From the IMG/VR virus record IMGVR_UViG_3300048839_001349, positions 1 through 39,835 of that record: a stretch of DNA of 39,835 nt. The stretch is one strand, 5' to 3'. Source of the stretch: a virus. Position 1 is the stretch's first letter. Each line of letters starts with the position of its first letter. The notes below the pieces were generated by a model. The model saw only the letters and a program-made list of their open reading frames with translations. It did no database searches and was not told the origin of the DNA. Of the stretch, positions 1 to 39,690 are shown piece by piece. A program made the translations under genes and the position numbers.

Positions 1-104
1 TCGCCAACGCCATAGCCATCGCCATCGCCATAGCCATTGCCATTGCCATTGCCATTGCCATCGCCATCGCCACTACTCGTTTGCGCGTCTTCAAACAAAA
101 TCAT
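1..104 (-). CDS. Gly-X repeat protein, 5' part (cut by window edge)
   Basis: This is the start of a small low-complexity gene read leftwards off the window edge. The ATG (102-104) overlaps the TGA of the upstream gene as ATGA, so translation is probably coupled. The protein opens with MILFEDAQTSSG and continues as Gly alternating with Asp, Asn, Tyr or Val, encoded by GGC followed by GAT, AAT, TAT or GTT. In the circular genome it corresponds to the full copy at 39534-39719, but its repeat tract matches the second copy (39425-39516) instead. Function is unknown. Similar Gly/Asp/Tyr-rich small proteins occur in other phages, from memory. Confidence 0.6.
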   Translation of the reverse strand, partial: MILFEDAQTSSGDGDGNGNGNGNGYGDGDGYGVG

Positions 105-220
105 TTAAGATGCTCTTTCCAATTCTCTTCATTCGCTGAAATACTCGCCACAATCGTTAAGGGATGAATTTTTACATCGCCATTGCATGGATCTAAAACA
201 GTTTCCGATGTGGGCCCATC
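63..220. repeat. Left copy of the end redundancy
   Basis: These 158 bases recur at 39678-39835 with a single mismatch (A at 93, G at 39708). The segment holds the start of the Gly-X gene and the last third of its upstream neighbour. The simplest reading is overlap left by opening a circular or circularly permuted genome, giving a circle of about 39,615 bp. The mismatch and the differing repeat tract just outside show the two copies are not the same molecule or read path. Confidence 0.85.
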
Positions 221-397
221 AAAGGTAATTTCACCCAACCCTTTAGTTGTGCCCCAGCGCCTTATAACACTTGCTTTTTCTAACAAGCACTCCCTTAACT
301 TTTTGTCTTCTGAAAAATAACCAACCATCACCCAACCTCGTTGCAAAATTAATATTCGCAATGATTTCTCTTTCTCGTTTTTAGATTCTTCACTCAT
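101..397 (-). CDS. Conserved phage protein, DUF6948-like
   Basis: A 98-residue soluble protein. The core reads ILILQRGWVMVGYF, then VIRRWGTTKGLGEI, then TVLDPCNGDVKIH. I recognise this as a conserved small phage family (probably DUF6948) often placed next to a Gly/Tyr/Asp-repeat protein, as here; the assignment is from memory. The start is an ATG with AAGGAGCG seven to eight bases upstream. Its TGA overlaps the ATG of the Gly-X gene (ATGA), so the two are probably translationally coupled. No catalytic motif is visible and no function is established. The last third is repeated at the right edge of the window. Confidence 0.85.
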   Translation of the reverse strand: MSEESKNEKEKSLRILILQRGWVMVGYFSEDKKLRECLLEKASVIRRWGTTKGLGEITFDGPTSETVLDPCNGDVKIHPLTIVASISANEENWKEHLK

Positions 398-413
398 TCA
401 CTCGCTCCTTTTT

Positions 414-629
414 CTAATCCTCAACAAGCATCCACTCATCGTAGTCTTGGTAAAACGAATAAGGCAATTCACAATCTTTGTTGATCACCTCATCACTTAA
501 ATTTTCATATCCAATATGGCCAATAGCATATTTGATTAATGGCTCACTCCAATCAAACCTTTTTAGAGAATATTTAAAAATGCACGTTCGATAAGGTGGA
601 GGCCTGTCTTTACGGCACTTTTTCCACAT
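414..629 (-). CDS. Small DUF551-like protein (paralogue of the 38182 gene)
   Basis: A 71-residue protein starting with WKKC and followed by a PPP turn, a beta-like stretch (GHIGYENL) and a C-terminal block ELPYSFYQDYDEWMLVED. The spacing of W-K-C, PPP, I/L-rich strands and LPxxxYxDYxxWM matches the gene at 38182-38409 and resembles the DUF551 pattern of small phage proteins. It starts with ATG and lies ten bases beyond the stop of the upstream gene, in a tightly packed minus-strand operon. Function is unknown. Its being a gene is well supported by context; the family name is tentative. Confidence 0.7.
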   Translation of the reverse strand: MWKKCRKDRPPPYRTCIFKYSLKRFDWSEPLIKYAIGHIGYENLSDEVINKDCELPYSFYQDYDEWMLVED

Positions 630-638
630 CTTAACTTC

Positions 639-857
639 TCACTCCTCTTTTTTAAGCTCTTCTTTTCTAACTAACTCCACGGCATAGAGGTGAGCCGTGC
701 TTGGTCTAATCATCAAATCCATGTACCACTCAGCCCCACTCTCGCCAATGTACTTCACCCGCAAAAACAAAGTGTCCCCATCAGCCTGAAAGCGCACCAA
801 TTGCCCAGTCCTATTGTTCACCCTAATGAAATCGCCAACCCTAATTTCTGCAGGCAC
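639..857 (-). CDS. Hypothetical small beta-rich protein
   Basis: A 72-residue protein with a short-strand pattern (IRVGDFIRVNNRTGQLVRF, then DTLFLRVKYIGE, then AEWYMDLMI) suggesting a small beta barrel, SH3- or KOW-like. That fold is a guess from the pattern. The C-terminus is charged (LVRKEELKKEE). It begins with GTG preceded by a GGGGGC stretch. It sits in the minus-strand operon between the RHH regulator and the DUF551-like gene. I do not recognise a named family. Confidence 0.65.
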   Translation of the reverse strand: MPAEIRVGDFIRVNNRTGQLVRFQADGDTLFLRVKYIGESGAEWYMDLMIRPSTAHLYAVELVRKEELKKEE

Positions 858-914
858 TTGCCCCCACTATCAAAGACGTCTACACTATACCAACATAGTA
901 AACAAAATAAGTTG

Positions 915-1094
915 TTAACCATCAATCCACTTTTTTACAATTTGCTCGCACAAATTACTTAGTGATGTGCCACTGTTGTTAGCGCAATCCTTTAAAAATG
1001 CTCGAGTTTCTGGGTTTACTCTAATCCCTATGGTGACCTTGGTCTTACTCTTTGGCTTTATCGCCTCGCTTAAATTAGACTTTTTCTTTCGCAT
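915..1094 (-). CDS. Ribbon-helix-helix DNA-binding protein
   Basis: A 59-residue protein with a basic N-terminal arm (MRKKKSN, then KPKSKTK), a beta strand VTIGIRVNPE, helix ETRAFLKDCANNSG and helix TSLSNLCEQIVKKWID. This is the Arc/MetJ/CopG ribbon-helix-helix layout, in which dimers insert paired strands into the major groove. The ATG has AAAGGAGACG eight bases upstream. It faces the plus-strand gene at 1210 across a 115-base gap that contains three GTTT-beginning half-sites spaced exactly 11 bp. It is therefore the likely repressor of itself and/or that gene. Fold confidence is good; the target is inference. Confidence 0.82.
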   Translation of the reverse strand: MRKKKSNLSEAIKPKSKTKVTIGIRVNPETRAFLKDCANNSGTSLSNLCEQIVKKWIDG

Positions 1095-1116
1095 AAAGAA
1101 CGTCTCCTTTTGAGAT

Positions 1117-1145
1117 GTTTACAAAAAGTTTGCGCATAGTTTACA
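1117..1145. promoter_or_regulatory. Candidate RHH operator: three 11-bp-phased half-sites
   Basis: GTTTACA (1117-1123), GTTTGCG (1128-1134) and GTTTACA (1139-1145) are direct repeats one helical turn apart, in the gap between the divergent RHH gene (start 1094) and the plus-strand gene (start 1210). Ribbon-helix-helix repressors typically bind arrays of short repeats on one DNA face. The sites lie 23-51 bp upstream of the RHH start codon, where they could block its promoter. No clean -35/-10 pair is visible on either strand. Confidence 0.55.
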
Positions 1146-1209
1146 TTTTATGGGTTACGCTTAAGCTTGTCAATCAGCCACTACCACAGGAAAAAGAGGA
1201 GAGTTTTTT

Positions 1210-1470
1210 ATGCAAACCAAACTCATTAAGGGAGAAAACACAGCAAACATTAACACCTCAGCCGACATTGAAGGTTGTTACTGGGCAGAAGTATTTTCAC
1301 AATTTCAGTGGGAGCCTGTGGTCTGGATTCACCTCACCCAAGGTGATCAAACTACACAATCAATTGCCCTTAGTGAAGCATCCGTAAAGGCACTGATTAA
1401 AGATCTTGAACGCTCACTAAGTGCTGTGAAAACAAAACAACAAACCCTTAGTCGTGCTGCTGCTAGCTAA
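1210..1470 (+). CDS. Orphan plus-strand small protein
   Basis: An 86-residue soluble protein starting at an ATG with a strong GAGGAG site eight bases upstream. The middle is aromatic (YWAEVFSQFQWEPVVWIHLT) and the C-terminal half is helical (SEASVKALIKDLERSLSAVK). It is the only plus-strand gene among minus-strand genes here. Its TAA (1468-1470) overlaps the converging stop of the gene ending at 1467. It is separated from the RHH gene by the candidate operator, which suggests an independently switched accessory (moron-like) gene. I do not recognise the family. Anti-host or anti-defence roles are possible but unsupported. Confidence 0.75.
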   Translation: MQTKLIKGENTANINTSADIEGCYWAEVFSQFQWEPVVWIHLTQGDQTTQSIALSEASVKALIKDLERSLSAVKTKQQTLSRAAAS

Positions 1471-1766
1471 GGCTGCACATCTTCTTTAGACTCTTCTGCA
1501 GTAGGGCCACACTTCGCTGCATTAAAGGCGCCATAGCTGCTGTACAAAGTCACATCACCCGACCCAGACTCACTACCTTCCCACTTGATTTGGTATGGCC
1601 TGGCTGAGTCTTGAGTAGCACTGTAACCAGTAATATGATCAATAATGATCCCCCTTAGCTCAGCAATCACCGCGTCTTTTATTTCGATTAATTTTTTCAA
1701 CTCAGCAATCTGTAATGCCCTTAGCTCAACAAGCTGCTCACGCAAAATTCTCTCTGTGTTTTCCAC
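1467..1766 (-). CDS. Hypothetical coiled-coil protein
   Basis: A 99-residue protein. Residues about 1-45 (TERILREQLVELRALQIAEL and onward through KKLIEIKDAVIAELRGII) form a leucine/isoleucine heptad helix; the C-terminal half is Gly/Ser/Tyr-rich. I place the start at GTG 1764-1766 because AGGAGAG lies about five bases upstream. An upstream TTG at 1788-1790 overlaps the previous stop (TTGA) and would add eight residues. The stop converges on and overlaps that of the plus-strand gene at 1210. Function is unknown. Confidence 0.6.
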   Translation of the reverse strand: MENTERILREQLVELRALQIAELKKLIEIKDAVIAELRGIIIDHITGYSATQDSARPYQIKWEGSESGSGDVTLYSSYGAFNAAKCGPTAEESKEDVQP

Positions 1767-1786
1767 CTGCTCTCCTCTGACAAGAT

Positions 1787-2329
1787 TCAATGGCTTGGAT
1801 TTTCTTTTTCAGCTCGCCATTTTGCTCTGATAAAATGATCTGGAAAAATCCCCCTTAGGTCTATTGCTTCGCCTACCTCATCGTAAAACACAAAAAGGTC
1901 TCCCCATGTATCTTTAGCATTCAAAACAGGAGCAAATGCTTCTATTGAATTTTTGTTGAGAGACATGCTCGCGCCAGAATTGTGCTGACCACTGTCTCTT
2001 AACGCTTTAGCGAGTGACTCTATTTTGATTGGGTAAGTTAGGCCATCTTTTTCGATTTCATAGCCACTTGCCGCTCGCAAGGCGAGTTCAAAATCTACAT
2101 CCAAAGGTAAAACATAAGCCTCATTTATTTCAATCCATCCTTGCTCCTTCTCTGGCTGAACACTTCCTATGATAACCCTTCCACTCTTTAAAAAGAACAT
2201 TGTTATGGTTGAATAGTATTCATGCTGCTTGCCGAGTAGCTCATTAATGTATTCGTCCTTTTCCTCCAGAGTAAATTGGCTTATCTCTTCTTCTAGTTCT
2301 TTAAATGTTTTTATTCTTTTGCCGCTCAT
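1787..2329 (-). CDS. Hypothetical protein, 180 aa
   Basis: A soluble acidic protein downstream of the primase-helicase in the same operon. The N-terminus is helical and charged (KTFKELEEEISQFTLEEKDE). The middle contains strand-like segments (TITMFFLKSGRVIIGSVQP, then EAYVLPLDVDFELALRAASG) and the end contains DLRGIFPDHFIRAKWRAE. It starts with ATG, with AAGGAA about twelve bases upstream. I find no known motif or catalytic signature. Its place beside the primase suggests an early accessory role, but this is weak inference. Confidence 0.75.
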   Translation of the reverse strand: MSGKRIKTFKELEEEISQFTLEEKDEYINELLGKQHEYYSTITMFFLKSGRVIIGSVQPEKEQGWIEINEAYVLPLDVDFELALRAASGYEIEKDGLTYPIKIESLAKALRDSGQHNSGASMSLNKNSIEAFAPVLNAKDTWGDLFVFYDEVGEAIDLRGIFPDHFIRAKWRAEKENPSH

Positions 2330-2387
2330 CTTAATTTATTTCCTTTGTTATTGTTAGTGCACAGAGCGCGTGACCCGATCACCTCTC

Positions 2388-4748
2388 TCAATGAAGCCTG
2401 GGCCTTAGAACCATCGTGCCATCAGCCTCGTTTCTAACTAACTTCATATTATCACCCTCTGAAGAAACCCCATCAGCATCATCGTCGGAGGGGAGACTCC
2501 ACCACATTGCCTGAAGTCCACCAACCCTTCGGTTTTTAGACTCAAGCCCATACTTCCTAAGCGCAGAAGCTATAGTGTGATCTATGTTGCCTTTGAGTGA
2601 TCTGAACAATGCAGGCTTTTTCTCGTTAAGCCATTCCCTAAAATCGCACAAGCGAAAAGATCCGCTCATTTTCTCAACTGCAAAATATTCTTGCACCACT
2701 TCAAGTACTGAGTTTTCTGGCACGCGTTTGTTCTGCTCTATCTCTGCCATCTCTTGGGGCGCATCCCAAACCTCTTCGCCTAGCCCAATCCTATGCCATG
2801 CCTCTGCCCATATTTGTTCACGCCACTTCATTAGGTAATCAACATCCAATACCCCTGGCACATGCACAGGCAAGTAACGCCTATTCCCCGTTTGATCTTT
2901 TAAATATGCATCATCATTTGTGGTGCCAATCAATACCGCTGTTCGTTTTAATGTCAGTGTTGCTTTGCCGTATGGTCTGCGCACCACGTCTACTGGCTGC
3001 GTGATAAAGTTCTTTATGATATTGCTCTGATGCTTTGACATATCGGTAAGCTCACCCCACTCAATGATTGAGCATCCAAGCAGCGCAATCTTTGTGTCTT
3101 TGTCACTTGGGTTTATTTGCAAACTCCTAAATGTCCCTGGGATTGCTAACGCCTCTGCAAATGTTGTTTTCCTTGTGCCTTGTGGCCCTTCTAATATTGG
3201 CATCATCTGCATTGGCTTGCCTGGGTGTAACACTCGCCATAGTGGTGCCATCATCAGATAGCGACTGACAAACCTGTTGTATTCATTATCTTCTATCTTG
3301 CGCGTTCGCCCTTTTATCACCGTCTTACTGGCTTCAATTAAAAATGTATCAAGCCTTGGCGTACCGTCCCACTTAAGTCGGCTTATAAATTTCATTGCAT
3401 AGTTTTGCTCAAAGTCTTCGCACGTTAAAGCAAAGCCATTTTCAAAAGATTGATCCCTTTCAAACAGCATAGCAAAAGATGAATACTTTCTTTGCAGTGC
3501 TATTCTTAATCGTACCAAGGCACCGTGAGTCATCACCTCACCTGCGGGGTTCTTTTCAGGATCTTTTGGCTTCATCATTTCAGTCTGCGCAAAAGAGTCG
3601 TACCAAAATTCATCCTTAATCAGCCCAGACTCTTTCATCAAAATGGAGATGTTGTTTGTGGTCCCTGCAATTCCACGCTTTGAAGTCACATTGAGCAGCG
3701 CCCATGCCTCGGGACTAAGGTTATACTGGCCAATTGCATCGGCATCTGATTGCCTCACCTCAATGCACTGATCGCTTACAACCTCGGGCACCTTAGTCCT
3801 GGCCTCTTCTTGAATAATAGTCACATGCTTGGGCGCCCATTCCCGAAAAGAAAACTCAGGGTCTTGGAGTGCATCGGCAGCATCCCATCCATCAGGCCTG
3901 TCACGCTCTGGTGTGAGGATCTTAAGGCTGGCCACAATCGGCGAAAGAATTGTCTTAAGCGCTTGCATCGCCTCATAGCCTGCATTGTCGTGGTCAGGCC
4001 ACATGATAACGTGCTTCCCCTTTAAACAATCATAGTTATTTTTAAACACAGATTGCGCCCCATGAGACCAGCTCATTGGTAACAACTTCCCATAAAGGTT
4101 TTCTCTTTTAAGGATATTTCTTAAAGCTCGCCGACTTTTTCCCCCCTCAGGAATAATGATCTTAGCATTGGGAAATTTGGCTAATTCGTTTAGTCCAAAC
4201 AATGGGCGAGGGGAAGGTAGGGCTTTGCGCTCCCATCTTATTTGCCCATTGGCGTACCTATATGGGGTGTGACAAACATAATACTTTGTGCCATCAGCAT
4301 TATCATATCTGCACTCAACAGTGAGGATGTGGCCTTTTGGTGAATAGCACACGTCTGTAAATGTTGGGGCGTTATGGCCTGATATGAATGGCGGTAAATC
4401 TGTGTCGGGAGGTAAAGCCACAGGCTCGCCCTTAGGTCTTGGCAGTGGCTGTGTGTGGGTCGGGATTGCATGATTGCCAAGGTAAGATTCTTCAAGTCGT
4501 TTAGCCGCCTCGCTTTGAGGGATGCCTTTGACTGTTGCATAAATATGCAAAATGTCTCCACCAGAATCATTGCTCGCAAAGTCCTTATAGACACCCTTAT
4601 TTAGGTTGAATTTAAACGAGTCGCCTGGCCCACCATATATAGTGCCAGCCACATATTCGCTGCCTACGCGCTTTCCACCTGGGCAGATGTCTGTAAGGAT
4701 TGTTTCCCAATAAGGTCTAAGTCGTGATGATAGTTCTTTGAAATCCAA
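2388..4748 (-). CDS. Primase-helicase: Toprim region plus VapE/VirE-type ATPase
   Basis: A 786-residue replication protein. The N-terminus (ICPGGKRVG, then GGDILHIYATVKG) resembles the entry region of phage primases without a visible zinc ribbon. A Toprim-like centre follows: EGGKSR at about 201-206 and WPDHDNAG at about 250-257. The C-terminal half is a superfamily-3-like VapE/VirE ATPase: Walker A GPQGTRKT at about 521-528, Walker B IIEWGEL at about 561-567, GTTND at about 608 and TGNRR at about 620. Arg replaces the Gly before the Walker A Lys (codon 3171-3173). The start is TTG with GGAGAGGGG close upstream; a TTG at 4829 would add 27 residues without a comparable site. It is the first clear gene of the early operon and probably opens the origin for host polymerase. 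Confidence 0.88.
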   Translation of the reverse strand: MDFKELSSRLRPYWETILTDICPGGKRVGSEYVAGTIYGGPGDSFKFNLNKGVYKDFASNDSGGDILHIYATVKGIPQSEAAKRLEESYLGNHAIPTHTQPLPRPKGEPVALPPDTDLPPFISGHNAPTFTDVCYSPKGHILTVECRYDNADGTKYYVCHTPYRYANGQIRWERKALPSPRPLFGLNELAKFPNAKIIIPEGGKSRRALRNILKRENLYGKLLPMSWSHGAQSVFKNNYDCLKGKHVIMWPDHDNAGYEAMQALKTILSPIVASLKILTPERDRPDGWDAADALQDPEFSFREWAPKHVTIIQEEARTKVPEVVSDQCIEVRQSDADAIGQYNLSPEAWALLNVTSKRGIAGTTNNISILMKESGLIKDEFWYDSFAQTEMMKPKDPEKNPAGEVMTHGALVRLRIALQRKYSSFAMLFERDQSFENGFALTCEDFEQNYAMKFISRLKWDGTPRLDTFLIEASKTVIKGRTRKIEDNEYNRFVSRYLMMAPLWRVLHPGKPMQMMPILEGPQGTRKTTFAEALAIPGTFRSLQINPSDKDTKIALLGCSIIEWGELTDMSKHQSNIIKNFITQPVDVVRRPYGKATLTLKRTAVLIGTTNDDAYLKDQTGNRRYLPVHVPGVLDVDYLMKWREQIWAEAWHRIGLGEEVWDAPQEMAEIEQNKRVPENSVLEVVQEYFAVEKMSGSFRLCDFREWLNEKKPALFRSLKGNIDHTIASALRKYGLESKNRRVGGLQAMWWSLPSDDDADGVSSEGDNMKLVRNEADGTMVLRPRLH

Positions 4749-4859
4749 ATGCCCCTCTCCCGTTGTTTTCTTTGTTGAGAATTGAAGGTGCGAACTATCA
4801 AGGTATGTCGCCAGGAAAATAGGGGTCAAAGCTTTGCGCTCTGTGGCTTAAGAAATAAT

Positions 4860-4887
4860 TTGACGATCACTATATGTAGTGGTAGTT
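4860..4887 (+). promoter_or_regulatory. Possible plus-strand promoter with embedded palindrome
   Basis: TTGACG (4860-4865) resembles a -35 box. A weak TAGTTT follows 17 bases later. The spacer contains the palindrome CACTA-TATG-TAGTG (4868-4881), a plausible operator. A transcript starting here would meet the hairpin terminator at 4955-4984 after roughly 90 bases. The -10 match is poor, so the call is tentative. The same palindrome could instead control leftward transcription of the primase gene. Confidence 0.3.
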
Positions 4888-4954
4888 TCTTTCTTACATC
4901 AGCCTAATAGATCTCTCGAAAGAGTTTTCTTGGGATTGGATGTGCGAGAAAAAA

Positions 4955-4984
4955 AGTCAGGTGTAAAAACCTGGCTTTTTTTTT
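4955..4984. terminator. Bidirectional intrinsic terminator
   Basis: AGTCAGGT (4955-4962), loop GTAAAA, then ACCTGGCT (4969-4976) forms an eight-pair stem with one G-U pair. An A-run precedes it and nine T's follow (4976-4984), so it should stop transcription from either side. It lies between the early operon and the 5-5.8 kb control region, so leftward transcripts starting beyond it would be attenuated before the primase gene. Confidence 0.7.
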
Positions 4985-5457
4985 GCCTTTTATCTCCCAC
5001 CAGCAGAGAATTATTATAGTTGTTGTTTTCTTTTTGAGGGGTGGGCACAAAGCTTTGACCTATTGTTTGGCCTTTGGACTCATTCGCCGAGCGCTCACCC
5101 CTCGCCATGCTGCAACAAAACTTTATTATTTATTAGTAAATTAAGATATCATGTTCTTCTAATGTTACAGCAGATGTTACATCTGTCACTTTGCCGCTTC
5201 GCGTGATCGCCCCTGGACTCCATTTCGCCCCCCATCTCCCGATAAGTTTTTGAGGCTAAATCCCATGTCTCGACCTTCAATTTACGCCCCGTGTTTAGAT
5301 CTAACGCGGGGTGCTTTGTTAAACCCTACCCGTTAAACCGCCTCCTCGTGCGAACCCTATTTGGCTTAAATGACGCAAATCTGACGTAGTTTCGTGTCGC
5401 AGCGAGCATTTTTTAGAAAAACACTTCACGCACATTTGTGACGCAGTATAGACATTG

Positions 5458-17503: not shown

Positions 17504-19159
17504 ATGCCAACGGTTCAAAGGTACACACAAGGGCAAGTGCAAGAGTCTGCTTTGCCCTCAAATAGGGTAGATGCCAGAGTAGCAGAAGGCGCTTTTGGTG
17601 TAGCTGAAGCTAAAGCCATTGGTGGTGCTATTGAGCAGGCCGGAAAGATTGTTAAAGACTACACTGACTATGCTGATCAGATTAAGATCATGGAAGCTGA
17701 GGGGCGTGCCACTGCGCTTGAGACAAGGCTTTTGTATGATAAAGATGTCGGGGCTTTAAATCAGAAAGGGAAAAACTCTTTTGGTCTGCCTGATACTGTT
17801 AAGGCTGACTACATAAAAGGCATTGAAGATATTCGTAAGGATTTAAACGAAAGACAAAAGCAGGCCTTTGAGAAGATTGTTGTTAATAAAGGTCTTGGTA
17901 TTGATCGCACAATCCAAAAGCATGTTAGCAATGAGATGCTTAGCTATGATACTCAAGAAACTGAGAGCTACTTGCAGACAAAGCGAGATGCTGCAGTAGC
18001 TGCCTACAATGATCCACAAAAAGTACAGGGTTTAATTGAAGACCAACAATTGGCACTCATGGCTCATGCACAAAGGCATGGCCTACCTTCTGAGTGGGTG
18101 AAGACAAAGGCTGAGGGAGCTGCCAGTCAGACTCATGCCACAGTCTTACAAATGATGATGAACAATGGGGATGATCTGGGGGCAGAGGCTTACTACACTG
18201 CCAACAAGGATTTTTTTATAGGTAAGGATAAGATTGCAGCAGAGAAGGATCTTGAAATTTCTAGCTTAAGAGGTCGCGGGCAAAGAACATCTGATGCCAT
18301 TATTGCTAAAGGATTAAGCATGTCTGAGGCAATGGAGGAAGCTCGAAAAGTTGAAGATCCTAAGCTAAGAGATGAGACGGTAAGAAGAGTTAGTGAAATT
18401 TATGTTCAAAAGCGTCAAGCCGAGCGCCTTGATCTTGAGCAAAGCCATATTGCGGCAACAGATCTGATTGAAAAGCATGGCACTGTGGATGCAATCCCGC
18501 CAAGTGTTTGGAATAAGTTTTCTCTTTCAGAGAGAAGTTCATTAATTAGATACGCAGACGCAAAGACATCTGGGAAAAACATTAAGACTAATTGGGAGAC
18601 CTATTACGAGTTTAAGACCATGGCTTCAAGTCCTGAGTTAAGGCAGAGCTTTATGGAGAAGAATTTGTATAAGCACAGGGATCAGTTTGCGGATGCTGAG
18701 TTTAAAGAATTAGTTAACATGCAAACTCAATTGCGCGGTGGGAAGTCTCCTAAAGAACTTGATGGATATCGCACAGATTCAATGATTGTGGCTGATGCTT
18801 TAAAAGAGATTAAAATTAAGCCAGGAAGTAAAGAGGGCGTGTTGTTTCATCGTAAGGTTGATGATGAGATCATGGCCTTTCAAGATCGGACAGGAAAGAA
18901 AGCCTCCAATAAAGATGTGCAGCAGATTGTAGATTTGTTGCGGATTAGAGGAGTTACAGAGCCAGGTGTTTTTTGGGGCACAAAGAAATATAATTTTGAG
19001 CGCATTCCTGGGGAGAAGTTTGATGTTAAGGCAGCAGATATTCCCAAAGAAGAGCGAGGCAAGATTGAAGAGGCTTTGCGCAGAAGTAACTTGCCAGTAA
19101 ACGATCAAGCAGTTCTTGAATTGTACACAAGGAAAATGAGGGTAAATCGTGGCTCTTAA
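17504..19159 (+). CDS. Internal virion protein (gp15-like position)
   Basis: A 551-residue, strongly helical, charged protein between the gp14-like and the giant polyvalent genes, where the second ejection protein belongs. It starts PTVQRYTQGQVQESALPSNR, a motif often seen at the start of these proteins; the rest is long amphipathic helices (TDYADQIKIMEAEGRATALE and similar). The C-terminal half contains a region KIKPGSKEGVLFHRKVDDEI. GAGGGG lies nine bases upstream of the ATG. Its stop lies inside the start of the next gene. Confidence 0.82.
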   Translation: MPTVQRYTQGQVQESALPSNRVDARVAEGAFGVAEAKAIGGAIEQAGKIVKDYTDYADQIKIMEAEGRATALETRLLYDKDVGALNQKGKNSFGLPDTVKADYIKGIEDIRKDLNERQKQAFEKIVVNKGLGIDRTIQKHVSNEMLSYDTQETESYLQTKRDAAVAAYNDPQKVQGLIEDQQLALMAHAQRHGLPSEWVKTKAEGAASQTHATVLQMMMNNGDDLGAEAYYTANKDFFIGKDKIAAEKDLEISSLRGRGQRTSDAIIAKGLSMSEAMEEARKVEDPKLRDETVRRVSEIYVQKRQAERLDLEQSHIAATDLIEKHGTVDAIPPSVWNKFSLSERSSLIRYADAKTSGKNIKTNWETYYEFKTMASSPELRQSFMEKNLYKHRDQFADAEFKELVNMQTQLRGGKSPKELDGYRTDSMIVADALKEIKIKPGSKEGVLFHRKVDDEIMAFQDRTGKKASNKDVQQIVDLLRIRGVTEPGVFWGTKKYNFERIPGEKFDVKAADIPKEERGKIEEALRRSNLPVNDQAVLELYTRKMRVNRGS

Positions 19160-22100
19160 TGAATACGACTCATTGCTAGTAAAAGATAAAGCTCCTGCAG
19201 GGAATGAATACGATGCCATGCTTGGAGATCTGCAAACCGAAAAAACAGGTCAAATGGCAGGGGCCATGCATGCAGCAGCAGAGATTGCGCCTGACTTTAA
19301 GGCCAACGCTTTAAAGCTAAGTAAAGAGTATTCTTTGCCTGTGGAAGTAGTAGAAAGAAACTATGATGATCTGGTAAAAAAAAAAGAGGCTTATCATACA
19401 GACTATGAGTCTATTTTAAAAAAAACACCTAAGCTTGCCGAGTGGATTGCAGACCCTAATAATGCAGCACTTTCAAAAGATGATCTAAAGGCATTAGGAA
19501 AACTCCATGAAAATGTTAATGAGTTTGAGGAAAACTCTGGCCTTTATAATGCGCTCTACTCTGGGCTAAATAGGTTTAACGAGGGGCTTGCAAAGACTCC
19601 TCAGTTTATTGGAAACCTTTCTTTAATCCCTAGTAATATTGTCAGAAAATCTTTGGACATGCCTCAGGTTAGTTATGGCACGGAAAACGAGCTTGCTAGT
19701 TACTATGCGGGGAATGCGCAAAAAGCAGAAGAGGCAACACCACTACTGCATGAGTCTGTCACTCAGGCGATTAGTGATGGTGAGTATGCTAGAGCAGGTA
19801 AGTCTTTGTTTTTACAGCTTGCTCACAATGCCCCTACTCAGATGGCACTTCTAGCGTCTAGTTACCTAGGAGCTCCTGCTGCAGGGCTTTCACTAGCAGG
19901 GCTTACCTCTGGTGCCCAGAAATCTAGTGAACTTTCTGAGAAAGGCTATGATCCTTTGGCAGCCACTTCTGTAGGGGCTTCTGTTGGTACTATAGAGGCA
20001 GGCTTTGAGAGCCTTGGCACTATGGGCATTTTAGCAAAGTGGGAAGGCGCTATTGCTAAAGGTTATGGCAAGGAAGTCTCTAAAGAGGTGATGAAGGATT
20101 TTGCTAAGACCATGGCTTACTCGTTTGCAGCAGAAGGGAATGAGGAGTTTTTAACCTCTTTAGCTCAAGACTTTACGGAGTATGCATCAGGGGTAAATCC
20201 TGAGGCCACAAGAGGGATGCTTCAAAGAGCGATGGATGCTGGTATTCTTGGCGCTGCTAGTGGTGGTTTGATGGTTGGCCCTAGTGGAGCTATGCAGGGA
20301 ATGCAGCGCATGAAGGTGGCAAATCAAGTAAGGGCAAATCAGGAGTTTTACCAAGCTCTTGGTAATGGTGTTGATGAGTCTAAGCTTAAGCAGCGCATGC
20401 CTGAGAAGATGAAAGAGTATGTTGAAAAGCTCACAAAAGATGGGCCACTTGAGAATGTGTTTATTCCTTTGGCAGCAATGGAGCAATACTTTCAGGAAAA
20501 GGGAGCAAGTCCTGTAAAGATGGCAGGAGAGCTTGGTATTTTGGAAGAGTATCAAGCGGCCAAGGAGATAGGGGTTGATGTAAAGATCCCTACTTCTAAA
20601 ATGGCAGAAAAGATTGCAGGCACTGAGCACTATCAAGCATTAGTGAATGATATCAAATTTGACCCTGAGCAGTTAACAGCTAATGAATTGGCCGCAGAGA
20701 GAGATGAGGCCAGGCGAAGGCTTGAGGCTGAGCAGAAAGATGTGGCTGAGAATGAGGAAACGATAAGAGCGCAAACTGCTGAGCAAGAGTCTGCTGAGAT
20801 TGGCAAGAGTGTTGGTGAGAGATTAAAAGAAATCGGCATTAGGGCACGAGATGCAAAGACCTATGGTCAGCTCTATGAGCGCATGTCTCTTACAATGTCG
20901 CAAAGATTGGGCATTACACCAAAAGAGTTTTTCGGGCGCTATGGTGTAAGGATAAACAATAGGCAAGTTATCCCTGGGGAGGGAGAGTCAGCGACCATGA
21001 ATGAGGGGGAAGTTCTTAACCAGTATGGTCAAGAGCGGCCCCCTCGAGTGCAGACAGAAGAGGATGGCTCTTTAAGTATTAACGAAGATGGAGTAAAGGC
21101 CTCGGGCAGTTTCATGGCTGAGGATGGTGGCATTGAGGATTTTATTAATCCTGATGGGATTTACACTGATGTTGTTGATTTAAGCAAAGAGGGTCTTGAT
21201 CAATTTGAGCGACCATTTCAGGTTGATGATATTGCAGTCAACCCTAGTATGCGTAGGTCAGGCGAAGGGACAAGAGCGCTTAGAGATCTTGAGAGTGCGG
21301 CGTTAAGTGAAGGTGCTGATGCTGTGTTTTTAAACGCGAGCCCAACTGGTACGTCTAACAAGGAGGCAGAGCTTGAGGGACTGATAAAGTTCTATGAGAA
21401 AAATGGTTATAAGGTAATAAGAAAAAGCGAAGGCAATGCGGAGATGTATAAGCCTTTGGCTCTGGCTGAGTACAATCAAACTCGCATGAGCCCACTTGGC
21501 TTTTACTCTCTGGTTGAAAATGAAATCGAAAAGATGAGTTTTAAAGAGATGCCAGCCAAGGATCTCATGGGACGCATTAAAAACATTCAGGGGGTTAAGA
21601 AGGAAGAGCTTGAATCATTGGGGTTAGAAGATTTCCTTAATTTAAAAGAAGGCAAAGTTTCTAAAGAAGAGGTGCTTGAGTTTGTTCGCAACAATGGCGT
21701 GCAGGTTGAGCAGATCATGCTTGGCAAAAAAGAAAATGATGATGGTAGTGAGGTCGGATTTACTGAGCCTGAGTTTGTGCCACTTTCTGAGATTGACAGA
21801 TATGCATACGATGATGCTGTTGAGTCAGAAGTTGATGACGATATTTATGAGAAAGAGGATAGTGACAGATACAAGCAAATTGTAGAATCTCTCAGGGACG
21901 AATACACAGATGAAGAGACTGGCAAGGTTGATGAAAGCGCCCTTGAAGATGCTGCCGTTAAGAAATTCACTGACGAACTATATGAGAGTCGTAGTGAGTA
22001 TATTGACAGTGAAGACTATTATGGTGCTCGGTACAGGATAACTGAAAAAAGTACTGGTTTTGAATTAATTGGCAATGATGATATTGGATGGTACTCATCC

Positions 22101-34326: not shown

Positions 34327-34570
34327 TATCAATGCTCTTTGTGGTTAGGGTGATGATTTCTTTAATGATTTGTTGGTCAAACTTCTCCTTAATCTCAGCC
34401 TTGTTGTGCGGAGACATCTCTTGAATGAGAGCATTTCTTTGCGCAATCGCCATCACCACTAAGCACTGCAAAGTCTCAACGCTTGAATGAATACCAACGA
34501 GTGTATTAAAGATTGTATTTTCAATTTCAGATAGAGGCTCTTGCACTACGCACCCCTCTTTCAAATCCAT
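34304..34570 (-). CDS. Small helical protein of the XRE operon
   Basis: An 88-residue helical protein (PLSEIENTIFNTLVGIHSSV, then KFDQQIIKEIITLTTKSID). It overlaps the end of the XRE regulator gene by 44 bases and the next gene by 23, so the three are probably translated together. No recognisable family. Confidence 0.6.
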   Translation of the reverse strand: MDLKEGCVVQEPLSEIENTIFNTLVGIHSSVETLQCLVVMAIAQRNALIQEMSPHNKAEIKEKFDQQIIKEIITLTTKSIDSGPENNN

Positions 34571-34820
34571 CTCTTATCTTATTGGTCGCATCTTTTTGTA
34601 TGAGCTTAAAGGCCTTGGATGTATCAGAGGCCTGCATTTCAAGCACTACACTTAACACACCAAAGAGTTCTACAGGAAGAGATGATCTTCCAATTTCAAT
34701 GGAGCTGACAAAAATAGACGACTTACCAATGGCTAGTGCAAGCTCTGCTTGAGTAAGATTGCGCTTTAATCGGTAGGATCTTACAAGCTTTCCAAGTTGT
34801 TTTTTTAAACTATCGTCCAT
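34527..34820 (-). CDS. XRE-family helix-turn-helix regulator
   Basis: A 97-residue DNA-binding protein with the XRE/Cro-CI fold: KLVRSYRLKRNLTQAELALA then IGKSSIFVSSIEIGRSSLPV, the positioning and recognition helices at about residues 20-45. The C-terminal half is helical (ASDTSKAFKLIQKDATNKI) and may dimerise. The phage lacks an integrase, so this is more likely an early/late timing regulator than a lysogeny repressor. The AT-rich palindrome at 5603-5624 is a possible target. Confidence 0.85.
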   Translation of the reverse strand: MDDSLKKQLGKLVRSYRLKRNLTQAELALAIGKSSIFVSSIEIGRSSLPVELFGVLSVVLEMQASDTSKAFKLIQKDATNKIRDGFERGVRSARASI

Positions 34821-34834
34821 GTTCTCTTACTTTG

Positions 34835-35101
34835 TTAGTAGGGGCTTTTTGTTAGTCGGGGAATCTTAATAAGTGTTGAGCTATCTTGCTCCTTAGCCAC
34901 TCTGCGAATCTGATTAATGGCAACAAGGGCGTAGCCATGTGCTGCTGTAAGGTCTTCTCCTGAGGCATTCATCTTCATCATGCTCTCAAACGAAGGCTCA
35001 CTCACTACCCTTACTTTTCCACCAACAACATCTTCAATAGTTAAAACTATCTTCGCCACGCGCTTATGTCCTTTCTTAAATTGGAATATCTTCTGATTCA
35101 T
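34835..35101 (-). CDS. Conserved small protein next to RecT
   Basis: An 88-residue protein: RVAKIVLTIEDVVGGKVRVV, then EPSFESMMKMNASGEDLTAA and HGYALVAINQIRRVAKEQ. I recall this V-E-D-GGKVRV ... GEELTAAHGYA pattern as a conserved small phage protein of unknown role. It overlaps recT by 26 bases, which suggests a link to recombination, by context only. Confidence 0.72.
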   Translation of the reverse strand: MNQKIFQFKKGHKRVAKIVLTIEDVVGGKVRVVSEPSFESMMKMNASGEDLTAAHGYALVAINQIRRVAKEQDSSTLIKIPRLTKSPY

Positions 35102-35921
35102 TCATTGGTGGAGGGAGGTCTACCGCAGAAGCCTCTTCCGCAAAGACTTCCTTACCCTCGACCTTAGAAATAAGAGCCTTTACGCGAGATGTCTTTTTTG
35201 TAGGCGCACTACTCTCACTTACATTTTTCATCTCAGCATTCACCTCTTCCTGGGGAGGGCTAAACTCATACATATCATCGTCTGCTGAGATTGTGTTTTC
35301 AAGATCAGTGCTCATGGGAAGTCTTTTTGATAACCTTCTGATGGCTGATTTCTTCATCATCTCTGTGGCAAAAGGCCCATCCCAGGGACCATTTGATGCC
35401 CTTGAAACAGCCTTTATTTTTCCAATCTGATCCATCGTTAAAACTTCAATGTAGATGCCCTCATCTTTAGTCTTAGCCATGGCATAGACTCCGATGATTG
35501 CCCCTCGATCTGAAAACATTTGAGGCCGATGCTCAATGTGCTCTCCACGCTCATCAATCCAGTAATTAAAAACATCATGCTCACAAACAACCTGAGACGT
35601 GAGACTCAATAAATCACCACTGTTTCTCACCTTCTTAAGAATCCCTGCCACCATGGGCATGTACTGCACTTGCCCTTTAAATGGCACAAGAGCTGCCTCT
35701 TTCCCATCAGGTAATAATGAATCCTGCGCAGCCTTCATGCACGCAGCAAAAAGACTTGTTCGATCACACTCTAAAAGCTTAGGGTTGGTTTGAATCGCAG
35801 TCTGCACCACGCGTAAAAACTTCTCTGACGAAACATGCTTAGCAAGAGCCATCTTAAACTGTGGCTCCATTTGCTTTAAACTGTTGCGGACTTCATCAAC
35901 GCGACTCACTGACTTTGACAT
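35076..35921 (-). CDS. recT: RecT single-strand annealing protein
   Basis: A 281-residue recombinase that coats and anneals single-stranded DNA. Family signatures: AACMKAAQDSLLPDGKEAAL, PFKGQVQYMPMVAGILKKVR, DVFNYWIDERGEHIEHRPQ and WDGPFATEMMKKSAIRRLSK. The C-terminal tail is acidic and disordered. AAGAGG precedes the ATG. Its nuclease partner (YqaJ type) is in the same strand module at 37035, but the VRR-NUC gene and two others sit between them. Confidence 0.95.
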   Translation of the reverse strand: MSKSVSRVDEVRNSLKQMEPQFKMALAKHVSSEKFLRVVQTAIQTNPKLLECDRTSLFAACMKAAQDSLLPDGKEAALVPFKGQVQYMPMVAGILKKVRNSGDLLSLTSQVVCEHDVFNYWIDERGEHIEHRPQMFSDRGAIIGVYAMAKTKDEGIYIEVLTMDQIGKIKAVSRASNGPWDGPFATEMMKKSAIRRLSKRLPMSTDLENTISADDDMYEFSPPQEEVNAEMKNVSESSAPTKKTSRVKALISKVEGKEVFAEEASAVDLPPPMNESEDIPI

Positions 35922-35980
35922 TTCTAACCTCTTACTATATTAATCTAGTAAGTAAACCTAGACCAAAACCCACGCTCTGT

Positions 35981-36217
35981 CTAGTAGTCCATATAAGTTT
36001 TTTTAGATTCAAGAGATCGCTTCCGATCAGAGATGTGCTCACGCATGGGAAATTTCCCCTTGTTCTTTACCCAAACTAACACACTCCCACAGTCAGGACA
36101 GTCTATTGTGTTGCGGCGAACACTCTTAACAACACCGTACGCAGACGATACTCCTGATGCGCATGCACTGCTGGTACATCTTGACTCAATCCTAACCTCA
36201 CTTACCAAGCTTCGCAT
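35981..36217 (-). CDS. Small zinc-ribbon-like protein
   Basis: A 78-residue basic protein with one CPDCGSVLVWV half-ribbon at about residues 40-50, Cys residues further upstream (RCTSSACASG) that could complete a metal site, and a basic C-terminus. AAGGAA lies upstream of the ATG. It diverges from the VRR-NUC gene with only 36 bases between starts, so any promoters must overlap the coding ends. No family recognised. Confidence 0.65.
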   Translation of the reverse strand: MRSLVSEVRIESRCTSSACASGVSSAYGVVKSVRRNTIDCPDCGSVLVWVKNKGKFPMREHISDRKRSLESKKTYMDY

Positions 36218-36253
36218 CTTGTCTTCCTTTCCTTTTCCAAGTAAAAACTATAT

Positions 36254-36745
36254 ATGAGTTACAAAGACAGTATCAAGTCAGCCATCCACAGATACCTTGA
36301 AAAACAAGATAAGCTCTCCGCAGGGCCCACTAGAAAAAACGCCAAGCCAGAAAAAGAGACAGAGAAACAAGTATTAGCATGGTGCAAATCTCAAGGATGG
36401 TCCGTGTCAATTGTTGAGTCCAAAGCTGTCTTCTCTCCTCGTGCCGGACGCTTCGTTCATGGTCAAGCCAAAGCTGGATTTGCTGACATTGTTGGTTTAA
36501 CAGATCAAGGTGTTTTTGTTGCCATCGAATTAAAGGCCAAGGGTCGCAGATCCACTCTTCGTGAGGCTCAACGCAGATATCTTGTGGACGTGATTGGGAA
36601 GCATGGCTTTGCGGTATGCGTGGACTCTCAGGAAAACTTGAGTAAAACTTACCTTCGCTGGATTGAGCATCCAGATAAACAGCTCTATCTTCTTTCATGC
36701 CTACCCCTTAAACCCACGCCCAATGAAAAGCCCCTCTTTGACTAG
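36254..36745 (+). CDS. VRR-NUC domain nuclease
   Basis: A 163-residue nuclease of the VRR-NUC (PD-(D/E)XK) type. Catalytic pattern: helix with Glu (KPEKETEKQVLAWCK, about 31-45), Asp78 in GFADIVGL, Glu92-x-Lys94 in IELKAKG and Gln106 in LREAQRRYL. Phage members are probably Holliday-junction or branched-DNA resolvases. It is on the plus strand within a minus-strand module; its TAG (36743-36745) overlaps the stop of the converging gene at 36742. No Shine-Dalgarno sequence is visible before the ATG, only AAAAACTATAT. Confidence 0.9.
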   Translation: MSYKDSIKSAIHRYLEKQDKLSAGPTRKNAKPEKETEKQVLAWCKSQGWSVSIVESKAVFSPRAGRFVHGQAKAGFADIVGLTDQGVFVAIELKAKGRRSTLREAQRRYLVDVIGKHGFAVCVDSQENLSKTYLRWIEHPDKQLYLLSCLPLKPTPNEKPLFD

Positions 36746-37005
36746 TTTCTTTTAACCAAAAATGCGCCAATCACCTGAGCCTCTCCGCTCACATTGCCAA
36801 GCATATAGTGCCCTGGCCTAAGATCAAATTGAGAAACTATATGCTCTTGACCAACGTAAGCTAGTGCCTTGTGCCACGGAAGCCCAGCAAACTGATCCAC
36901 GTCAATTCGCTCCTGCTTAAACTCTAAATAAGGGCCAGCAGGTAAAGGGAAATTAATAAACCCACCCATTGTTGGGTCTGCGTTTTTTAAATACACCGTG
37001 CGCAC
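36742..37005 (-). CDS. Hypothetical protein, 87 aa
   Basis: A soluble protein directly after the YqaJ nuclease gene. Features: YLKNADPTMGGFINFPLPAG, HKALAYVGQEHIVSQFDLRP and YMLGNVSGEAQVIGAFLVKR. I choose GTG 37003-37005 because AAGGGG lies at good distance; an upstream GTG at 37032 would add nine residues. Function is unknown. The stop overlaps that of the VRR-NUC gene. Confidence 0.62.
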   Translation of the reverse strand: MRTVYLKNADPTMGGFINFPLPAGPYLEFKQERIDVDQFAGLPWHKALAYVGQEHIVSQFDLRPGHYMLGNVSGEAQVIGAFLVKRN

Positions 37006-37034
37006 TTCCCCACCCCTTAGCCAGCAGAGCACTT

Positions 37035-37934
37035 CTATTTTTTAAAGTTAATCCTGAAATCTCGGTAGCCTTTGCGGACATAAGAAATCTCTTTCTCACC
37101 AATCATTCCTGATGAAATACTATAGCGCTCACCTAAGACTTTTGCGCAGTCACCCATCATCGTCAAGAGCTTTGCCTTTTGCGCCGCCTTCACCGCCTCA
37201 AGCTCCTTGATCTTCTCACTCACTTGACGATAGCGCTCAGCAACAATGTCAATTTCCCCTGTGGCAGGCATCACTTTGTTGGGGTTTGACTGGGAATAAA
37301 GCTGGCTAATAAAAGCAGCATCCTTTTCAAAGTCCGGCTCAGGAGCAATGCCCTCATCAATTGACTTCCAAAACAAACTAGACTGCTTAATAATGGATTC
37401 CTGAATCTCCTCATCCCTATCTCTTTCTATGATGTAAGCCTTATTCCCTCCCACCAGGGCGCCTAGATAAGCCTTATTAAAACCTGTTACTAGCATCTGC
37501 ATTTGGATTTGCAATTCAATTTGTGTTGGCGCCTCTAAGGTGTCTTCCTCGTTTAAGATCCACCCTTGCTTAAAAACTAAACCATCAACATTTTTAATCT
37601 CAAGAATTGCTGCAACATCAGTGATCTCATAGTCAAAGCTTGCGCCAATGCGAAGCTCCGAGTCCCTAACATACTCAGACTTCTTTCTTATTTCCCAACC
37701 CAGATCCTCAGCAATACCATGAGCAATGCTCTCTTCTAACCGATTGCCCCACTTCATTCTCTCATTTTCTTCAAACTCCACCGTCACATCATTATGCTTT
37801 CTGTGCCATAACTCAAACTTTGTCAGATAAGGTGATAAACCAAACAGCGCTGAGACCTCAGTAGAAGTGATGTCCTTTCTTCTTAACTCAAGCCAATGAT
37901 CTTTACTCTCAGGAATGATAATTTCTTTTGCCAT
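37035..37934 (-). CDS. YqaJ/lambda-exonuclease-type nuclease
   Basis: A 299-residue recombination exonuclease. The YqaJ pattern is clear: LRRKDITSTEVSALFGLSPY at about 17-36, GNRLEESIAHGIAE at about 63-76, Asp101 in GASFDYEI, Glu112-x-Lys114 in LEIKNVDG, and IELQIQMQMLVTG at about 139-151. It should degrade one strand from double-strand ends to feed RecT. A C-terminal coiled-coil-like extension (RYRQVSEKIKELEAVKAAQK) may form oligomers. Start overlaps the previous stop as TAATG. Confidence 0.94.
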   Translation of the reverse strand: MAKEIIIPESKDHWLELRRKDITSTEVSALFGLSPYLTKFELWHRKHNDVTVEFEENERMKWGNRLEESIAHGIAEDLGWEIRKKSEYVRDSELRIGASFDYEITDVAAILEIKNVDGLVFKQGWILNEEDTLEAPTQIELQIQMQMLVTGFNKAYLGALVGGNKAYIIERDRDEEIQESIIKQSSLFWKSIDEGIAPEPDFEKDAAFISQLYSQSNPNKVMPATGEIDIVAERYRQVSEKIKELEAVKAAQKAKLLTMMGDCAKVLGERYSISSGMIGEKEISYVRKGYRDFRINFKK

Positions 37935-38185
37935 TACTTACCTTTCTCTCTTACATCTAATATTTCATTAAGCTTTTTAAAAGCCGTCTTATAGTCGCCC
38001 ACAATTTCGATGATCTCCCCTGTCTGCCAATTAAAGCACTCATACCCCTGTAAGCGCTTCCTGTTGTCAGCACAAGGATGATTGTTAGTTGAGCCACTCA
38101 CTCTGAAAAATGTGCGCAGTATCGTGTAGCCTCGATGCTCAATAGATTTCTTAGTCTCCCAATCTGATCGCTTTCGTTCTTTCAC
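37934..38185 (-). CDS. Hypothetical protein, 83 aa
   Basis: A soluble basic protein (IEHRGYTILRTFFRVSGSTN, then LQGYECFNWQTGEIIEIV). It begins with GTG overlapping the previous stop (GTGA) and preceded by TGGAG, and ends in TAATG overlapping the YqaJ start. Tight coupling suggests it belongs to the recombination operon. No family recognised. Confidence 0.65.
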   Translation of the reverse strand: MKERKRSDWETKKSIEHRGYTILRTFFRVSGSTNNHPCADNRKRLQGYECFNWQTGEIIEIVGDYKTAFKKLNEILDVREKGK

Positions 38186-38409
38186 TTAAGCTCCATCCAA
38201 TACTGATAGTCTTTGTAGAGAGGAAAAGGAAGGGTATTGTTACCATCTACATCAACAACACTGTCTGTGTTTACGGTGCGCTTACCTCGGTAAATAGTTC
38301 TTGTCTTTTCCCCGCGAGAATTAACCTTAACTAACTTAAGTAAAATCAAAACCTCGTGTGGAGGAGGACTTGCCTTTGTGCATTTCCAGGTCAATGTTTT
38401 AACATCCAT
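38182..38409 (-). CDS. Small DUF551-like protein (paralogue of the 414 gene)
   Basis: A 75-residue protein with LTWKCTKASPPPHEVLILLK near the N-terminus, then TIYRGKRTVNTDSVVDVD and LPFPLYKDYQYWMELK. The order W-K-C, PPP, YxG, N/D-rich segment and LPxxxYxDYxxWM matches the gene at 414-629, suggesting distant paralogues, and resembles the DUF551 pattern of small phage proteins. It overlaps the upstream gene by 19 bases and the downstream one by four. Function is unknown. Confidence 0.7.
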   Translation of the reverse strand: MDVKTLTWKCTKASPPPHEVLILLKLVKVNSRGEKTRTIYRGKRTVNTDSVVDVDGNNTLPFPLYKDYQYWMELK

Positions 38410-38600
38410 TTATCAATCTCTACTTTATAGAATCTGTGAAGCCTTCCTATGCGCCGAGAGGGAATTTGTTTTTTGTCCAAAAGGCGATAAACTGTTTCTT
38501 TGCTGATTCCTAAATACTCGGAGAGCTCTTTTACCGAAAGCCATGTTTTAGTACTTAGGTTTTGATTTGGTTTTTGTGGTGCTTTTTTCTTTGTGCCCAT
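38391..38600 (-). CDS. Excisionase-type helix-turn-helix protein
   Basis: A 69-residue DNA-binding protein. After a basic tail (GTKKKAPQKPNQNLSTK), WLSVKELSEYLGISKETVYR then LLDKKQIPSRRIGRLHRFYK with closing helix EIDKWM match the HTH_17/excisionase-type winged fold. Without an integrase in the genome a role in excision is unlikely; transcription control or origin binding are alternatives. GGAG lies upstream of the ATG. Confidence 0.88.
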   Translation of the reverse strand: MGTKKKAPQKPNQNLSTKTWLSVKELSEYLGISKETVYRLLDKKQIPSRRIGRLHRFYKVEIDKWMLKH

Positions 38601-38606
38601 AGTTAT

Positions 38607-38831
38607 TTACTCCACAATCCTTACTCCTGCAATTTTCACACTTGGCTCTTGAATGGTTTCTTGTGCTTGCATTATTGCTGGTGGCGGACATTGAAACAAT
38701 AACATGTGTCGGAGATCACGGTAGGTCTTTTGAGTTACTCGTATTTCAATTAATGGTTCAGCGTCTCCGCTCGTCTCTTCCAAGAGATCCTGTAGCCTCC
38801 TGACTGCCTCTAGTATCAACAATGCTTTCAT
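38607..38831 (-). CDS. Hypothetical protein, 74 aa
   Basis: A small acidic protein: a helical N-terminus (ALLILEAVRRLQDLLEETSG), then a strand-like part (IEIRVTQKTYRDLRHMLLF) and a flexible tail (QETIQEPSVKIAGVRIVE). AAGG lies before the ATG. It stops six bases before the HTH gene. No family recognised. Confidence 0.62.
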   Translation of the reverse strand: MKALLILEAVRRLQDLLEETSGDAEPLIEIRVTQKTYRDLRHMLLFQCPPPAIMQAQETIQEPSVKIAGVRIVE

Positions 38832-38848
38832 TTAAAAACTACCTTCTC

Positions 38849-39220
38849 TTAAACCAATTCAATCGGAGGCATGGGGAAATCCCTGCCATCGTTAAGGCGC
38901 CAAAGATGTAAGCAAGTTTGCATTAAGTTTACATAACTTGTGCGCGGCGGATGGTACTGGACAACGACCTCATCAAAATCAAAAATCAAATCTTTGATAA
39001 AACACATCTCATCCCATGATGGCGTGTAGATGCCTGACACTGAAACGTGTTGCCACTTTGAATCAGTAGGTGCCACCATCACGGCAAGGGTTTTATTTTT
39101 TCCTTTACCACGCTCTTTAAGGTGAGATGGAATCATAAACCAACCAAAGTTATCACCTGGGAAATGCTCTAGGCCACTTGGATGAGGTTTTCTGTAGATT
39201 TCAATTTGTCTTAAGTTCAA
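38849..39220 (-). CDS. DUF7694-like phage protein
   Basis: A 123-residue protein. WQHVSVSGIYTPSWDEMCFI, KDLIFDFDEVVVQYHPPRTS and CLHLWRLNDGRDFPMPPIEL form the core that I associate with a conserved phage family (probably DUF7694) of unknown function. I choose TTG 39218-39220, nine bases after AAAAGGAG; the TTG at 39229 abuts that site and would be too close. It follows the Gly-X array in the operon. Confidence 0.78.
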   Translation of the reverse strand: MNLRQIEIYRKPHPSGLEHFPGDNFGWFMIPSHLKERGKGKNKTLAVMVAPTDSKWQHVSVSGIYTPSWDEMCFIKDLIFDFDEVVVQYHPPRTSYVNLMQTCLHLWRLNDGRDFPMPPIELV

Positions 39221-39247
39221 CGAAATCAACTCCTTTTCTGTCTAACA

Positions 39248-39343
39248 TTACCAGCCACAGCCATTGCCATTGCCATCGCCATCGCCATCGCCATAGCCAT
39301 AGCCATCGCCACTACTCGTTTGCGCGTCTTCGAACAAAATCAT
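39248..39343 (-). CDS. Gly-X repeat protein, copy 3 (short)
   Basis: A 31-residue version of the repeat protein: MILFEDAQTSSG, then a short run of Gly with Asp, Tyr, Asn and one Cys, ending GW. The start follows the previous copy's TAA by five bases, with no separate ribosome site, so it depends on reinitiation. It has about half of the repeat units of the other copies. Confidence 0.55.
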   Translation of the reverse strand: MILFEDAQTSSGDGYGYGDGDGDGNGNGCGW

Positions 39344-39690
39344 TTAAATTACCAGCCAACGCCATTGCCATTGCCATTGCCATTGCCATTGTCATAGCCA
39401 TCGCCATCGCCATAGCCATTGCCATCGCCAACGCCATAGCCATCGCCATCGCCATAGCCATTGCCATTGCCATTGCCATTGCCATCGCCATCGCCACTAC
39501 TCGTTTGCGCGTCTTCGAACAAAATCATTTAAATTACCAGCCAACGCCATTGCCATTGCCATTGCCATTGTCATAGCCATAGCCATAGCCATCGCCAACG
39601 CCATAGCCATCGCCATCGCCATCGCCAACGCCATAGCCATCGCCAACGCCATAGCCATCGCCATAGCCATAGCCATAGCCATCGCCACTA
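39250..39690. repeat. Hexanucleotide-repeat array with three ~185-191 bp units
   Basis: Three copies of a constant block beginning CACTACTCGTTTGCGCGTCT at 39310, 39495 and 39686 are separated by tracts of GCCATN and GCCAAC hexamers. Unit spacing is 185 and 191 bases. On the minus strand each unit encodes one complete Gly-X protein. Because hexamers contain no stops, other frames are open as well, including one with an ATG every six bases. The structure is typical of slippage and unequal recombination. Confidence 0.9.
39349..39528 (-). CDS. Gly-X repeat protein, copy 2
   Basis: A 59-residue protein: constant MILFEDAQTSSG, then about 22 Gly-X units with X being Asp, Asn, Tyr or Val, one GGC-to-GAC change near the end, and a terminal VGW. 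Its first 92 coding-strand-equivalent bases (39425-39516) are identical to bases 1-92 of the window. It starts five bases after the TAA of copy 1. Confidence 0.6.
   Translation of the reverse strand: MILFEDAQTSSGDGDGNGNGNGNGYGDGDGYGVGDGNGYGDGDGYDNGNGNGNGNGVGW

Follow-up and report, generated by a model that had tools for sequence, protein, structure and literature searches.

The 115-base interval at 1095-1209 of this viral genome is probably the promoter-operator of a leftward early operon, with the small ribbon-helix-helix (RHH) protein encoded beside it acting as an Arc-like autorepressor. The sequence analyzed, hereafter the window, is the IMG/VR virus record IMGVR_UViG_3300048839_001349 (39,835 nucleotides, positions 1 to 39,835, one strand read). 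The first-pass annotation had described a 59-residue RHH gene that faces a plus-strand gene across 115 bases holding three repeats at 1117, 1128, and 1139, and all of these were found at those positions. Its pairing of a regulator with an operator is also supported, in that an RHH gene has beside it a phased array in the position expected of an operator. However, the proposal that these form an independently regulated, self-contained accessory cassette is not supported, because a strong promoter in the interval points into the RHH gene and on into the leftward early block and because the junction is the place where relatives carry their switch. The junction instead looks like a main early control region. 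If this reading is right, the window offers a compact promoter-operator as well as a pointer to a second genomic site.

Genome organization

The head-tail connector and terminase have 40-50% identity to those of epsilon15/phiV10/CP2-type podoviruses, and PHROG matches were obtained for the capsid and tail genes. In the structural module, a single ORF at 19149-27965 encodes 2938 amino acids, which is very long for a 40-kb podovirus. The last 119 bases of the record are an exact copy of its head (220 bases at 94.5% identity when the hexamer repeats are counted). This identical end overlap indicates that the genome closes on itself at about 39.6 kb. The assembly join is spanned by a long GCCATC hexamer array arranged in several blocks (39254-39687 and 1-72), each of which ends in a common sequence of about 40 bases (CACTACTCGTTTGCGCG...CATTTAA). 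Such a minisatellite is unusual for a phage genome.

Genes in 1-5108 are mostly leftward. Three small minus-strand genes (639-857, 414-629, and 101-397; identified as ORFs with coding scores) lie downstream of the RHH gene and are co-directional with it, and none has a match to a named family above the cut-off. Past the contig join, the leftward genes continue as a minus-strand block (35076..39229), which includes a gene with a phrog_7839 match (38849-39229), an excisionase-type HTH gene (38391-38600; TIGR01764, 3.2e-16), RecE (37035-37934), and RecT (35076-35921). The excisionase-type gene is present, yet no tyrosine integrase was detected in the whole record. The RecT region also contains a gene for an XRE/HipB-like HTH protein (34527-34820), a further candidate regulator. 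An endonuclease-like gene (phrog_93; 36254-36745) lies on the plus strand within the leftward block. The gene divergent from the RHH gene, previously described as a lone plus-strand gene in a co-directional operon, is thus on the plus strand but is not alone in its orientation.

Given the closure of the genome, the promoter described below would read leftward into the RecE/RecT block. The distance from the RHH gene downstream to RecE is about 2.6 kb and includes about 600 bp of hexamer repeats, and for this reason the continuity of the operon as far as RecE can only be inferred. A terminator may be located between the two genes.

The RHH protein

The 59-aa RHH gene (915-1094, minus strand; ORF with a profile match) has a GGAG Shine-Dalgarno sequence before 1094 and probably opens the leftward early operon. 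Its product matches phrog_582, an Arc-like repressor family, over residues 1-57 (E=6.5e-5). Profile matches below the cut-off include a NikA-like family in Pfam (8.2e-4) and, on the same scale, RelB in NCBIfam (8.4e-4); the NCBIfam list also includes MobA, and several weaker RHH profiles match below the cut-off as well. The Arc profile of Pfam (PF03869) has no match at E<=1 in the window, and no HTH family in Pfam, PHROG, or NCBIfam matches the product of 915-1094 or of 1210-1470. By sequence, the protein is classified as an RHH protein outside the Arc Pfam family PF03869.

A single-sequence structure model predicts helices at residues 28-39 and 45-57 and no strand, with low confidence (pLDDT 64.6), and a PDB sequence search and a Foldseek search with this model returned nothing usable. 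No homologs of the RHH protein were found among viral contigs, phages, plasmids, and 29 terminase relatives, and the RecE relatives contain no recognizable homolog of either this protein or the divergent orphan. One match from the homolog searches, in L031 (E=0.003), was rejected because it falls in a lysine/arginine-rich frame within another gene.

Promoters and phased repeats in the interval

The minus strand of the interval contains a sigma-70 promoter, TTGACA (1173-1168)-17-TAAAAT (1150-1145), that matches the consensus at 11 of 12 positions and is directed at the RHH gene. This feature (1145..1173), which was overlooked in the first-pass annotation, is the sole site with at least 11/12 sigma-70 matches in the 39.8 kb. 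Transcription from it would be expected to start near 1138. The proposed operator (1117..1145, plus-strand orientation) consists of three GTTTRC repeats, namely GTTTACA (1117), GTTTGCG (1128), and GTTTACA (1139), which span the -10 edge of this promoter, the expected start, and the first ~20 transcribed bases. Judged by sequence, a repressor site would be expected in this position. Moreover, the overlap of repeats at 1117-1145 with a minus-strand promoter at 1173-1145 that faces the regulator's own gene is the arrangement of an autoregulated early promoter.

The spacing of the repeats is exactly 11 bp, which confirms the earlier claim that they lie one helical turn apart. When three 6-mers at equal spacing were scored, none of 400 dinucleotide shuffles reached the observed score at a spacing of 11 bp, and one of 400 did when spacings of 7-24 were allowed. 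This significance weakens with longer words (8/400 for 7-mers, 13/400 for 8-mers, and 17/400 for 11-mers), and the middle repeat (1128) is imperfect, deviating from the outer two. The phasing therefore exceeds chance, but modestly when the interval is considered alone, and to call the repeats half-sites is an interpretation. An explanation at the RNA level was ruled out, as the interval folds no better than its shuffles (z 0.35) and has no Rfam match.

A scan of viral contigs for triple GTTTRC repeats found 58 contigs, mostly with 11-bp tandem repeats in unrelated phages, and a stricter operator pattern had no match. No sequence relatives of the RHH protein were found near the repeats in the 58 contigs, in a check that would miss RHH proteins of diverged sequence. 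Intergenic 11-bp tandem arrays of (A)GTTTRC occur, for example, in the unrelated viral contigs L048 (5085-5124) and L043 (10148-10187), and the L048 array and positions 1128-1145 of the window have 18 bases in common: GTTTGCGCATAGTTTACA. Arrays in contigs that lack a relative of the RHH protein indicate that repeats of this kind can occur where this regulator is absent. The case for a functional role here is based on where the repeats sit on the promoter, on the differences between their spacers, and on the second site.

On the plus strand, the only promoter candidate in the interval is a weak one for the orphan, TTTACA-18-TACATT (1118..1147; 9/12 matches), which is composed of the outer two repeats. 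A score of 9/12 is at chance level, given that the region has 11 promoter-like sites versus 10.4 expected.

A second phased site

A matrix derived from the three operator copies was used to scan the genome at 11-bp spacing. The pair at 38916/38927 (GTTTGC-N5-GTTTAC; 38916..38932, plus-strand orientation) scored 22.3, above both training pairs, and is a candidate auxiliary site for the RHH protein. The next best score outside the operator was 13.3, and no simulated genome reached 20.8 (0/150 first-order and 0/120 third-order). Other viral DNA (1.38 Mb) had no such pair at spacing 11 and only two over spacings 8-40, corresponding to a background rate of about 0.002 pairs per 40 kb per spacing; the actual rate may be several-fold greater, as the DNA sampled has a higher GC content (55%). 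The spacers between repeats differ (AAAAA and GCATA at the operator, ATTAA at the second site). The second site falls in the 3' end of the gene with the phrog_7839 match and has no visible promoter, and coding constraint may be the source of this pair.

The divergent orphan gene

The plus-strand gene divergent from the RHH gene (1210..1470; 86 aa) has AGGAG before its ATG. Its coding score is 0.241 bit/codon in frame, versus 0.182 for the 99th percentile of wrong frames, and it is a real coding gene. The first-pass annotation noted that its product matches nothing known, and this was borne out in every collection searched. No Pfam, NCBIfam, PHROG, or PADLOC family matches it, and no relatives were found in viral contigs, phages, plasmids, or one genome each of 84,980 bacterial/archaeal species; homologs are also absent among the 29 terminase relatives. 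The sole match in a search of 398 genomes (E=0.00998) was rejected because it contains internal stops. The suggestion of a host- or defence-directed factor is a claim without evidence, as neither a match in PADLOC, Pfam, or NCBIfam nor any relative points to such a role.

The structural prediction that had been proposed as a check gave a low-confidence model (pLDDT 57.7) in which three strands are accompanied by a long helix. In VIA-align, its best Z is 6.5 to PUR-alpha, followed by several PC4-like entries at 4-5 and with COMMD among the rows; Z values under 8 may reflect a common arrangement. The model hints at a PUR/PC4-like fold, which is a lead rather than a result. Its lack of relatives makes the orphan a clean subject for a functional test.

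The corresponding junction in relatives

In three contigs with related RecE (L092, L094, and L097), a pair of divergent HTH genes separates the RecE operon from the helicase-primase operon. The gene on the RecE side encodes a repressor-like protein of about 207-265 aa, and the other encodes an HTH protein of 85-113 aa. The name "CI-like" applies only weakly to the large genes, for it is based on their position and one match at E=0.004, and PHROG matches are weak. In L006 and L126, the small HTH gene is at the junction and the large one is absent. Neither gene of a CI/Cro-type HTH pair is present at the junction of the window, where the RHH gene lies on the RecE side and the orphan on the other; this likeness to the relatives is positional only. 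Furthermore, the primase gene of the window is inverted relative to those of L092, L094, and L097.

Proposed mechanism and alternative explanations

Under the autorepressor reading, host sigma-70 RNA polymerase would fire the TTGACA-17-TAAAAT promoter upon phage entry, such that the RHH protein is made first and the products of the genes toward RecE/RecT next. As the RHH protein accumulates, its dimers may line up on the three GTTTRC repeats, each a helical turn from the next, and would then cover the -10 edge and the start, closing the leftward promoter. The same complex would probably repress the 86-aa gene also, which is proposed because the only candidate promoter of that gene consists of the outer repeats. 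The pair at 38916 would serve as an auxiliary site. We infer the binding, the repression, the read-through to RecE/RecT, and the co-regulation of the orphan. This reading is favored by the RHH assignment, the unique 11/12 promoter under the repeats, the phasing, the second site, the closure of the genome, and the position of the switch in relatives. Against it stand the absence of homologs of the RHH protein and the orphan, the weak RHH match, the imperfect middle repeat, the 11-bp GTTTRC arrays in unrelated contigs without a recognizable RHH neighbor, and the intragenic location of the second site.

A two-way, CI/Cro-like switch is possible but doubtful. In such a switch, the RHH protein and the orphan would oppose each other in an early decision, with the orphan promoter occluded by bound RHH protein. 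The pair does occupy the position of the divergent CI-like and Cro-like genes of the relatives, the orphan is about as large as their small HTH gene, and the repeats form the sole plus-strand promoter candidate of the interval. However, that candidate is at chance level, the orphan has no HTH match, and the lack of a tyrosine integrase in the window makes a lysogeny decision doubtful. A related and unlikely scenario is that the RHH protein and its 11-bp-phased operator replaced the CI/Cro switch of the group, with the orphan as a small effector that may bind nucleic acid through a PUR/PC4-like fold and would be expressed only when the early operon is in the opposite state. It is similarly unlikely that the repeats arose by chance or as a minisatellite and regulate nothing, with the RHH protein acting elsewhere. 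The repeats lie on the strongest promoter of the genome, a second phased pair exists elsewhere, and the differing spacers are unlike those of an expanded tandem repeat, whereas the drop in within-interval significance to 8-17/400 with longer words, the arrays in unrelated intergenic spacers, and the 18-base identity with L048 would all fit such an origin.

The resemblance of the RHH protein to plasmid proteins, with NikA-like as the best Pfam match and MobA among the NCBIfam entries, raises the question of whether the repeats are iterons or a partition/mobilization site for an RHH protein akin to ParG, NikA, or MobC in a phage maintained as a plasmid. The closed genome, the lack of a tyrosine integrase, and the in-phase direct repeats are compatible with this explanation. 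Nonetheless, it is very unlikely, given that the record has no ParA-type ATPase (PF13614) and no relaxase (PF03432) and that only three repeats are present, overlapping the strongest promoter. The chance that the RHH protein and its neighbor form a toxin-antitoxin pair is slighter still. The orphan is divergent from the RHH gene, not co-transcribed with it, the genome has no ParE/RelE-type toxin (PF05016), and the neighboring genes match no toxin or defence family (Pfam, PADLOC). In favor of such a pair are the weak RelB match (E=8.4e-4; 19.6 bits versus a cut-off of 50) and two repeats that read ATGTAA/TTGTAA on the minus strand, in agreement with the RelB hexad [A/T]TGT[A/C]A (PMC2812701).

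Comparison with known systems

With the autorepressor reading, the kind of system is well known, namely an Arc-like autoregulated early promoter, and the partner gene is unexplained. The half-sites of the Arc operator are one helical turn apart. The arc gene of P22 is reportedly under autogenous regulation (Youderian 1982, cited in PMC2629481). As in the Arc (and Mnt)/ant operon of P22, a small RHH protein comes first in the operon that it is proposed to repress. However, the Arc operator has two half-sites, whereas three same-strand repeats are present here; P22 also has the Ant antirepressor and Mnt, neither of which was seen in the window, and the operon proposed here is the RecE/RecT early block.

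For both RelB and Arc, adjacent RHH dimers bind cooperatively to closely spaced operator sites (PMC2812701). The proposed complex would resemble Escherichia coli RelB on relO in that RHH dimers sit side by side at close sites over their own promoter (PMC2812701). In contrast to the 12-bp palindromic halves and the RelE-type toxin of that system, the repeats here have the same orientation and are 11 bp apart, and no RelE-type toxin is present.

A parallel in position is the CI/Cro-like switch of L092, L094, and L097, which is likewise a divergent pair around a short control region at the junction between RecE/RecT and replication genes. The window differs from these relatives in that RHH replaces HTH, the gene paired with it does not encode a known regulator, and the SF2 helicase is absent. 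If an RHH autorepressor indeed stands where relatives have a CI/Cro-like pair, different repressor folds can fill one regulatory post.
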